Below, in pieces: positions 41,204 through 46,428 of a stretch of 64,000 nt of DNA. This DNA is from Parafrankia elaeagni. Lineage in GTDB: Bacteria; Actinomycetota; Actinomycetes; Frankiales; Frankiaceae. The notes beneath the pieces were generated by a model that made no database searches, was not told the DNA's origin, and was given only the letters and a program-made list of their open reading frames with translations. Location: NCBI RefSeq assembly GCF_000374165.1, contig NZ_KB893671.1, positions 186,193 to 250,192 of the forward strand, read 5' to 3'. The stretch's first letter is position 1. The number at the start of each line of letters is the position of its first letter. Made by a program: the position numbers and the translations under genes.

Positions 41204-43852
41204 GTGCCCGAGGCGCCGCCGGTGACCACCGGAGCTGTGCCGACGGCCGCGTCATCCGCCGGGGAGACGCGGCCGGCGCAGCCTGCCCCAGGCGGGGGCA
41301 GGCCGCCCGCCGCCGGGGCGGGTGGCGCGGTCGGTGGGCGGTCCACCGCGGGCGAGGCCGCCGATCAGCCGGCGGCCGGGCTTCCGGCTTCCGGACCGGG
41401 CGGTGTCGGCGCTGCCGGCGGTGCCACGGCCATCAACATCGCGGCTGGTGGGCCGGCAGGCGGGTCTGCCGCGGCTGACGGTGGTCCCGTTCCGCCCGAG
41501 GCGGACGACACCGATCCCGCGAGCGGGTCACCGGTGGTGCCCCGGCTCGGGCACGAGTCCCCGCCCCTGCCGCGGCGGGTGCGCGGGCGGTTCGCCCGGC
41601 TCGGCACACACCGGGCGACGCCGCCGTCCTCGCTGGACCCGGTGCTCCGCGGGCTGCTGGCGAACCATCCGCGGGCGGAGATCGGCCAGGTCCAGCGGGC
41701 GTTCGAGGTGGCCGACGCGGCGCACGCCGGCCAGGTCCGCTTCTCCGGGCACCCGTACATCACCCATCCGATCGCGGTGGCGAGCATTCTCGCCGACCTC
41801 GGCATGGACATTCCGACCCTGTGCGCGGCCCTGCTGCACGACACGCTGGAGGAGACGGACCTCCCGCCCGAGACGATCGAGGCCGAGTTCGGTTCGCAGG
41901 TGCTGCAGATCGTCGACGCGGTCAGCAAGCTGAACCGGGTCAAGGTCGGCGAGGCCGCACAGACGGAGACCATCCGGCGGATGGTCGTCGCGATGGCCCG
42001 CGACCCCCGCGCGCTGGTGGTGAAACTGGCCGACCGGTTGCACAACATGCGGACGCTGCGGTTCCTGCCCGAGCACAAGCAGGAGCGCAAGGCGCGCGAG
42101 ACGCTGGAGATCTACGCGCCGCTGGCTCACCGGCTCGGCATGAACTCGCTGAAGTGGGAGCTGGAGGACCTGGCGTTCGCCGCGCTGTTCCCCAAGCGCT
42201 ACGACGAGATCGTCCGGCTCGTCGCCGACCGCGCGCCCAGCCGGGACGTCTACCTGACCGAGACGTCCGCGCAGGTGCAGGCGCAGCTCGCCGACGCGCG
42301 GATCAAGGCTGTGGTGACGGGCCGGCCGAAGCACTACTACTCGATCTACCAGAAGATGGTGGTTCGCGGCCGGTCCTTCGAGGACATCTACGACCTGGTG
42401 GGAATCCGGGTCCTGGTCGACTCGGTCCGGGACTGCTACGCGGCGCTGGGCACCGTCCACGCGAACTGGAAGCCGATTCCGGGCCGGTTCAAGGACTACA
42501 TCGCGATGCCCAAGTACAACATGTACCAGTCGCTGCACACGACGGTCATCGGGCCCGAGGGCAAGCCGGTCGAGCTGCAGATCCGGACGCACTCGATGCA
42601 CAACCGGGCCGAGTACGGCATCGCGGCGCACTGGAAGTACAAGGAGGACGGGTCGGGCGCGCGGACGTCCGGCTCCTCGCGCCGCGCTGCCGCGAAGTCC
42701 GGCGGCCCGGCCGGTGGCACCGCCCCGGACCTGAGGAACTGGCTGCGCCAGATCCTCGACTGGCAGCGGGAGACGGCCGACCCGGGGGAGTTCCTCGACA
42801 GCCTGCGCTTCGACGGTGCCGCGGACGAGGTCTTCGTCTTCACGCCGAAGGGCGACGTGATCCCGCTGCCGCTGGGCTCGACCCCGGTCGACTTCGCCTA
42901 CGCGGTGCACACCGACATCGGCAACCAGTGCGTCGGTGCCCGGGTCAACGGCCGGCTCGCCGCGCTGGACACCGAGCTGGAGAACGGCGACGTGGTGGAG
43001 GTGTTCACCTCCCGAGCGCACTCCGCCGGTCCCAGCGAGGACTGGCTGATGTTCGTCCGCTCCTCGCGGGCCCGGACCAAGATCCGTCAGTGGCATGCGC
43101 GTGAGCGCCGCGAGGACGCGATCGTGGCCGGTCGGGACGCGATCGGCCGGGCGATGCGGCGCCACGGCCTGCCGCTGGCCCGGCTGATGACCGGCGACGC
43201 GCTGCTGACCCTGGCGAAGGACATGCGCTACGCGGACGTCACGGCCCTGTACGCGGCGGTCGGGGAGAACAACGTCAGCGCGCAGGCGGTGGTGAACCGG
43301 CTGTTGCAGAGCCTGGGCGGCGCCGAGAGCGCCGAGGAGGACGCGGCCGAGACCGAGCTGCCGATCCGGGCCCTGCGCCGTGCCGGTGGCGATCCGGGTG
43401 TGCTGGTCACGGGCGCCTCGGACGTCTGGGTGAAGCTCGCCCGCTGCTGCACCCCGATGCCCGGCGACGACATCGCGGGCTTCGTCACCAGGGGGAAGGG
43501 CGTGTCGGTGCACCGTTCCGACTGCGTCAACCTCGACAGCCTGCGCGGCGGCCCGCACGACCGGACGGTCACCGTCGAGTGGGCGCCGTCATCGGGTTCC
43601 GTGTTCCTCGTCGTCATCCAGGTCGAGGCGCTGGACCGGACCAGGCTGCTCTCCGACGTGACCCGGGTCCTGTCGGACCATCACGTCAACATCCTCTCCG
43701 CGTCGGTCACCACGACGCGGGAGCAGGTCGCGGTGAGCCGGTTCACCTTCGAGATGGGTGACGCCAAGCATCTCGGCCACATTCTCGACGCCGTCAGATC
43801 CACCGACGGCGTGTACGACTGTTTCCGGGTCACCTCGGACATACAGAGCTGA
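41204..43852 (+). CDS. relA: Bifunctional-type RelA/SpoT homologue, synthetase intact (first of tandem pair)
   Basis: An 882-residue (p)ppGpp enzyme. After about 145 low-complexity residues comes the HD hydrolase domain, with His in ITHP, His212-Asp213 and the DRLHNM Asn. The catalytic Glu-Asp pair is replaced by Glu216-Glu217 (HDTLEE). The synthetase domain looks fully canonical: [33 protein letters not shown], Glu457 in VELQIRT and [15 protein letters not shown] ([28 protein letters not shown]), the conserved cysteine domain ([11 protein letters not shown]) and a C-terminal ACT domain follow. GTG start with CAGGAGC upstream. It follows apt and is trailed after 23 bases by a second homologue. 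I infer a synthetase-leaning enzyme. Confidence 0.95.

Positions 43853-46428: not shown

Follow-up and report, generated by a model that had tools for sequence, protein, structure and literature searches.

Adjacent Rel-type and RshA-type genes with complementary catalytic sites in Frankiaceae: a predicted two-gene (p)ppGpp module

Why would an actinobacterium carry two complete RelA/SpoT homologues (RSHs) side by side, the one altered in its hydrolase site and the other in its synthetase site? The question is raised by a stretch of 64,000 nucleotides from Parafrankia elaeagni, hereafter the window (positions 186193-250192 of contig NZ_KB893671.1, in an assembly of 7.59 Mb and 135 contigs). The textbook case of such a division of sites is the RelA/SpoT split, and an original prediction, made from the letters of the window, had claimed two full-length homologues with 23 bases between them. 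Both open reading frames are indeed found there, and we refer to the upstream gene as copy A and to the downstream gene as copy B. In our judgement copy A is probably a synthesis-only enzyme and copy B probably a hydrolase, the two forming a (p)ppGpp module made up of a Rel and an RshA protein; the sequences support the split pattern more firmly than they do either activity. The features on which this reading is built are the following.

41204-43852, + strand: copy A, a Rel-type long RSH of 882 amino acids with a GTG start (open reading frame, TIGR00691, Pfam)
41699-42142, + strand: HD_4 (pseudo-)hydrolase domain of copy A (PF13328, residues 166-313)
41837-41854, + strand: HDTLEE replacing HDxxED in copy A (residues 212-217, Glu217 for Asp)
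42320-42652, + strand: RelA_SpoT synthetase domain of copy A (PF04607, residues 373-483), with Glu457 at 42572-42574
43061-43828, + strand: AH/RIS and ACT regions of copy A (PF19296, residues 620-773; PF13291, residues 799-875)
43853-43875, + strand: intergenic gap of 23 nucleotides, with the purine-rich gagggcgaggggg ahead of the GTG of copy B
43876-46428, + strand: copy B, an RshA-type long RSH of 850 amino acids with a GTG start (open reading frame, TIGR00691, Pfam)
44119-44562, + strand: HD_4 hydrolase domain of copy B (PF13328, residues 82-229), with HDTVED at 44257-44274
44743-45060, + strand: predicted pseudo-synthetase domain of copy B (PF04607, residues 292-394), with the motifs SIRTSHIFS, NDIVRVLV and RLRDF, Asp375 (44998-45000), and AETGIVAKP, which lacks the His and Trp
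45478-46011, + strand: Gly/Ala/Pro-rich linker of copy B in place of the helical domain of Rel (boundaries approximate)

Both proteins score above the curated cut-off of TIGR00691 (spoT_relA; 819.5 bits for copy A and 608.7 for copy B, cut-off 499.2), and according to Pfam both contain the HD, synthetase (SYNTH), TGS and ACT domains by which long RSHs are recognised. Their synthetase domains are matched very differently by PF04607, with 82.4 bits for copy B versus 149.8 for copy A. The residues quoted in the original prediction were read correctly, namely Glu216-Glu217 and Glu457 in copy A and, in copy B, HDTVED at 128, DRLHNM at 193, SIRTSHIFS at 290, Asp375 within VDIQIRT and AETGIVAKP at 387. 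The closest named relative among the loci listed is Parafrankia colletiae Cc1.17, with 97% identity for copy A and 96% for copy B.

Copy A comprises the HD_4, RelA_SpoT, TGS, AH/RIS and ACT domains, the same set as the single Rel of the family member G012 described below, and its residues 95-878 align with RelA chain 8FR8, which like 5XNX we take to be a structure of a mycobacterial bifunctional Rel. All 27 tabulated synthetase sites are intact in each of the 33 readable Frankiaceae copies A. The Arg, Lys and Asp of RFKD are likewise kept in all 33, and the acidic EFDD that stands in place of RFKD in the RelA synthetase domain of Beta- and Gammaproteobacteria (available part of PMC3153485) is absent. 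In the hydrolase domain, whose residues are numbered here as in SpoT of Acinetobacter baumannii (SpoTAb) and were assigned by motif rather than by aligning SpoTAb itself, all 33 copies A have replaced Asp83 of HDxxED (Glu in 29, Gln in three, Arg in one). Moreover, the position of Lys46 is non-basic (Phe, Leu or Ala) in 32 of them and that of Glu49 is His in every one. The copy A of the window shows the exchange of Asp83 for Glu, the loss of the basic residue 46 and the Glu/Asp-to-His change, its metal ligands being retained. HDxxED is retained in all 76 Rel proteins used for comparison, which are 36 from the residue alignment (four of them from outside the class, and that of G012) and 40 further ones, and SpoTAb becomes hydrolase-inactive on substitution of Y51, E82, D83 or N147 (PMC9974481, in the part available). 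What had been claimed of a single protein, a canonical synthetase together with an altered Glu-Asp pair, is thus a property of all 33.

In some Frankiaceae the site has changed further. The metal ligand Asp79 is lost in five copies A, from G009 and the four Protofrankia-type (g2) genomes that could be read, and the metal ligand Asp143 in six, those of the same genomes and of G003; the last of these losses is independent because G004, the sister of G003, retains Asp143. The family therefore displays three states, namely an intact HDxxED (G012), loss of the Asp with the metal ligands kept, and loss of metal ligands. Outside Frankiaceae, and outside the 76 Rel proteins, the long RSH L074 (5596-7809, in a SAR324 metagenome-assembled genome) has an unrecognisable HD motif with several synthetase motifs apparently intact, and is possibly another Rel lacking the hydrolase.

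Copy B shows the reverse pattern. Eleven core hydrolase residues (R45, Y51, H54, H78, D79, E82, D83, K140, D143, R144 and N147) are intact in 31 of 31 copies B, which extends to the family the claim that copy B keeps its hydrolase set; position 46 holds Arg (28 copies) or His (three), and 27 copies have Lys at position 161. The copy B of G013 (L091, 2186-4620, - strand) is divided between two frames that overlap, one of 687 and the other of 363 amino acids, the result of a frameshift or an assembly error, and was left out of the 31, with which its residues agree. In the synthetase domain, numbered as in Rel of Thermus thermophilus with residues again assigned by motif, all 31 copies have exchanged Gly248 for Ile, Val or Ala, Lys251 for Ser, Arg277 for Leu and Glu345 for Asp (30) or His (one), and all lack the His and Trp (AHW) that follow EYGIAA and are changed at the positions of K384 and G400 of copy A. 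Altogether 19 SYNTH positions conserved in Rel are altered in at least 90% of copies B. The regulatory region differs too: PF19296 (AH_RIS) matches copy A and the Rel of G012, and finds no match in two copies B (window and G009) or in two RshA-type proteins, and the distance from the end of TGS to the Cys motif is 130-303 residues in seven copies B versus 137-138 in four copies A and G012, an eighth copy B, that of G009, not being measurable.

Of 36 Frankiaceae genomes, 32 carry copies A and B next to each other (that of the window, 30 with measured pairs, and G022, in which part of copy A is masked), which answers in the affirmative whether the tandem pair is conserved. In the 30 pairs B begins, by its first start codon, which may differ from the true one, anywhere from 56 nucleotides inside A to 187 nucleotides past the stop of A. 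Four genomes are exceptions. G008 is 63% complete and holds a single HD fragment with HDTVED, and in G016 and G021 copy A lies at or close to the end of a contig. G012, which is 94% complete, has one Rel with intact HDTVED and full synthetase motifs, and no second RSH within 8 kb downstream of rel. The A/B pair is present in G014. The gene order of G012, secD-secF-apt-rel, is that of the window, where the genes upstream of copy A are

36895-38979, + strand: secD, open reading frame, upstream context
38981-40240, + strand: secF, open reading frame, upstream context
40435-40989, + strand: apt (adenine phosphoribosyltransferase), open reading frame directly upstream of copy A

We take these to be the correct names, those of secD and secF having been assigned by eye and that of apt by eye and from the original prediction. 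We reject chance or a pseudogene as the source of the pattern, since the pair and its split recur and B has conserved its hydrolase sites. Nor does the window's genome seem to hide an extra synthetase, a PF04607 scan of that genome matching copies A and B and no further synthetase domain. Across the family there is one other PF04607 match above the cut-off (G007, 36.4 bits) and one below it (G024). The former, in a Protofrankia-type genome (G007:C46:761-1120), is an extra RelA_SpoT domain in a frame of 356 amino acids and perhaps a small alarmone synthetase.

But where did copy B come from? A maximum-likelihood tree built from 75 sequences over 470 columns of the N-terminal domains (NTD), proteobacterial RelA not being among the sequences of this or our other trees, recovers copy A as monophyletic (support 99.4/100), joins it with the Rel of G012 (100/100) and unites copy B with seven RshA-type proteins of other families (100/100). 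These seven (L132-L137 and L115, from G125, G216, G072, G119, G257, G377 and G052) were found by PF13328 and open-frame length in 53 chosen genomes, mostly those with at least two matches, and "RshA-type" denotes the second long RSH of its genome, of the expected length and divergence, as no named RshA is in the sample. The grouping of B with them recurs in single-domain FastTrees (HD 0.993, SYNTH 0.96, TGS 0.971) and has a support of 100 both in a maximum-likelihood tree of HD only and in one of slow sites; that of A with G012 is recovered by HD, not by the SYNTH-only FastTree, and is weak (0.273) in the TGS tree. All seven RshA-type proteins have an intact HDxxED, have lost Gly248 and Arg277, carry Leu or Ile for Gln347 and have Arg at the position of Gly400, and the Arg at that position together with the missing Arg277 is common to copies B and RshA-type proteins in 38 of 38. 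In none of the seven genomes does the RshA-type gene adjoin rel, and the Rel of each keeps HDxxED. By these relationships copy A is the apt-linked actinobacterial Rel, and copy B is of the RshA type known from Actinobacteria. Since copy B agrees with all seven in these changes at Gly248, Arg277 and Gly400, the pattern suggests that damage to the synthetase began before copy B reached its present location.

The reciprocal alteration of the two copies can also be followed in their divergence. Counting departures at columns that are at least 97% conserved in the 36 aligned Rel (52 in SYNTH and 61 in HD), we found 16 among 1716 cells in the SYNTH domain of copy A, 655 among 1612 in copy B and 150 among 364 in the RshA-type proteins; in the HD domain the counts were 195 of 2012 (9.7%), 137 of 1891 (7.2%) and 53 of 427, respectively. 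The ratio of HD to SYNTH divergence is 1.05 for Rel (0.99-1.11, n=32), 1.26 for copy A (1.16-1.34) and 0.69 for copy B (0.64-0.74), the ranges being obtained by resampling the sequences 100 times with shared ancestry uncorrected. Without the g2 genomes and G009 the ratio of copy A is still 1.19. Within copy B the between-species difference is larger in SYNTH than in HD (0.223 vs 0.155).

It is through its TGS, AH/RIS and ACT regions that Rel detects deacylated tRNA on starved ribosomes. Because copy A keeps its synthetase and these regulatory regions and is altered in the hydrolase site, it would be a synthesis-only, RelA-like enzyme that makes (p)ppGpp on starved ribosomes. Copy B would be SpoT-like, mainly or only hydrolysing (p)ppGpp, because its core hydrolase site is complete, synthetase residues are lost and the AH/RIS match is gone. 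Lying 23 bases apart, the two genes are probably read as one transcript, so that synthetase and hydrolase would be supplied together, and a single message would hold A and B in proportion. Such co-expression could account for the loss of the hydrolase motif being restricted to Frankiaceae among the actinobacterial Rel examined. We infer these activities, the co-transcription and the following order of events from the observed sequences, residue patterns, conservation, ratios and trees: an RshA lineage whose synthetase was already damaged would have contributed a gene that arrived behind rel in Frankiaceae, whereupon the hydrolase site of Rel would have decayed, the Asp of HDxxED going first and the metal ligands following in separate lineages.

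Several other explanations, which are not mutually exclusive, have to be weighed against this one. The original prediction had copy B arise as a local tandem duplicate of the Frankiaceae rel, with reciprocal loss as for RelA and SpoT, an explanation that concerns origin only and draws on the adjacency of A and B, on their shared HD, SYNTH, TGS and ACT domains and on the fact that duplicates usually begin as tandem copies. However, in constrained searches, which were short (20 iterations), an A+B clade is 71 log units worse and is rejected by the approximately unbiased (AU) test under LG+F+G4 (p=0.0027), as is a clade of A, B and G012 (60 log units worse, p=2.5e-5). Copy B also goes with the RshA-type proteins in the whole NTD and in each of its domains, with which it shares the residue changes named above, and when these proteins are removed it falls elsewhere in the class and not with A, in a weakly supported placement. 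We also dismissed the view that long-branch attraction alone produced the grouping, given that B joined A in none of the HD-only, slow-site and RshA-removed trees. We thus regard a local duplication as very improbable, and while the sequences support the RelA/SpoT-like division itself, in that the split of catalytic residues is conserved family-wide and the HD/SYNTH ratios shift in opposite directions, they do not support its proposed origin. No less remote is the notion of copy B as a paralogue without catalysis, whether decaying or kept for regulation alone; its eroded synthetase and its low-complexity linker of varying length would fit, but its 11 core hydrolase residues are kept throughout and 32 of 36 genomes have the gene next to rel, so that we give this notion hardly any credence.

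A number of observations weigh against a strict division of synthesis and hydrolysis between copies A and B, or against the way in which we arrive at it. To begin with the trees, copy B and the RshA-type proteins are long branches, and some attraction between them is possible. As to copy A, 27 of the 33, including that of the window, retain both metal-ligand aspartates, with Asp83 alone changed within HDxxED (Glu in 26, Gln in G018), and the ligands H54, H78, D79 and D143 are all present in 27 of 33. Glu is a conservative replacement for Asp, and the exchange of Asp for Glu is not among the SpoTAb changes given in the available part of PMC9974481. Copy B differs more between species in HD than copy A does (0.155 vs 0.133), and the bulk count of conserved HD positions, tried as proof of hydrolase loss in copy A, does not discriminate between the copies. 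Because it does not, the case for this loss rests on the catalytic sites and on the ratios. Copy A may therefore be bifunctional in most genera, HDTLEE being able to hydrolyse, with B as an extra hydrolase and the split complete only in the g2 genomes, in G009 and perhaps in G003. We consider this unlikely, though far from negligible, given that Asp83 is kept in 76 of 76 Rel, 31 of 31 copies B and seven of seven RshA-type proteins, that its substitution inactivates SpoTAb (PMC9974481), that copy A has also changed at positions 46 and 49, and that the later loss of metal ligands at three places in the tree suggests a site that was already dispensable. A separate HD protein of 206 amino acids, encoded at another place in the window's genome (L003; G000:C133, 1252-1872, - strand), with AGEDYIGHP and HDVVEDS, resembles a small alarmone hydrolase and lies below the HD_4 cut-off, and 33 of 36 family genomes have a weak HD_4 match of similar extent. 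L003 could share in hydrolysis, so copy B may not be the sole hydrolase.

With regard to synthesis by copy B, the original prediction that its synthetase is lost proved true for the quoted changes, which are real and part of an erosion seen in 31 of 31 copies, but the site is not erased. Arg249, Asp272, Tyr329, Gln347 and the His of SLHT are retained in all 31, and of five synthetase residues named in the published text available (R249, R277, Y329, D272 and Q347) copy B alters R277 alone. With Asp272 and Gln347 kept, the claim of non-synthesis depends on the remaining changes and on Glu345 being important for synthesis, as we presume. Both Asp272 and Gln347 are called catalytic in PMC9974481, as far as that text is available. 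Copy B may thus retain a weak or altered synthetase activity like SpoT of E. coli, perhaps for another stress, and, according to the accessible parts of two papers, RshA of Streptomyces is labelled [HS] and treated as a synthetase (PMC9927088), and a role in phosphate starvation is ascribed to RSH in a review (PMC6627660). We think this rather unlikely for copy B, as Glu345, Arg277, Lys251, Gly248 and the AHW His and Trp are changed in every copy and SYNTH varies more than HD between species. A more far-reaching and clearly tentative proposal is that the whole RshA clade consists of hydrolase-only long RSHs misread as bifunctional from their domain content, that the siting of one of them behind rel made the hydrolase of Rel redundant and let it decay, yielding a RelA/SpoT-like system from non-sister parts, and that A and B, translated together, may form a hetero-oligomer in which each inactive domain regulates its partner. 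The published [HS] label and the role in phosphate starvation disfavour a hydrolase-only RshA in Streptomyces. Yet the seven RshA-type proteins, with their intact HDxxED and degenerate synthetase, are at odds with that label, under which RshA was also named as the actinobacterial Rel duplicate in a survey of the superfamily (PMC3153485, in the part available).

How does the predicted module compare with known systems? Subfunctionalisation of long RSHs has been described in Gammaproteobacteria (PMC9974481, available part). Like RelA[hS] and SpoT[Hs] of Beta- and Gammaproteobacteria, including the hydrolase-only SpoT of Moraxellaceae/Acinetobacter, the Frankiaceae pair consists of two long RSHs with complementary sites, each retaining its other domain; unlike them it is actinobacterial, adjacent and non-sister (Rel plus RshA type). 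SpoTAb has replaced Asp272 and Gln347, whereas copy B keeps both and is eroded at other residues. With RshA, known from Streptomyces and Salinispora (Atkinson et al. 2011, PMC3153485; Sun et al. 2001 through citation), copy B shares its place in the trees, the absence of both Gly248 and Arg277, and an Arg in place of Gly400, but it lies beside a Rel lacking HDxxED, while the seven RshA-type genes lie away from a rel that encodes it. Copy A, in turn, groups with the bifunctional actinobacterial Rel (PDB 5XNX, 8FR8) and lies at the apt locus as in G012, and differs from it by the Asp of HDxxED that is missing from all 33 readable copies. In Frankia sp. CcI3 the genes are probably those with the consecutive locus tags Francci3_1376 and Francci3_1377; in the accessible part of PMC3188489, the one text among those consulted that mentions them, both are annotated as (p)ppGpp synthetases, the split is not discussed, and transcripts of both are higher in 3-day than in 5-day cells. 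We found no description of a Frankia split among the matches listed, a search of titles and abstract openings with subscription papers mostly outside it. HD divergence resembling that of RelA is reported for RshB of Bacteroidetes (PMC3153485, in part), so that loss of the hydrolase in other phyla may have parallels.

If the reading of copy A as the synthetase and copy B as the hydrolase is true, Frankiaceae would hold an independent RelA/SpoT-like split in another phylum, assembled from non-sister parts. Such an independent case would show which residues go first and whether that order repeats, and would tell if Rel becomes free to lose its hydrolase once a dedicated one is encoded beside it. 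It would also call the bifunctional label of RshA into question, which bears on the interpretation of Streptomyces ppGpp0 strains.

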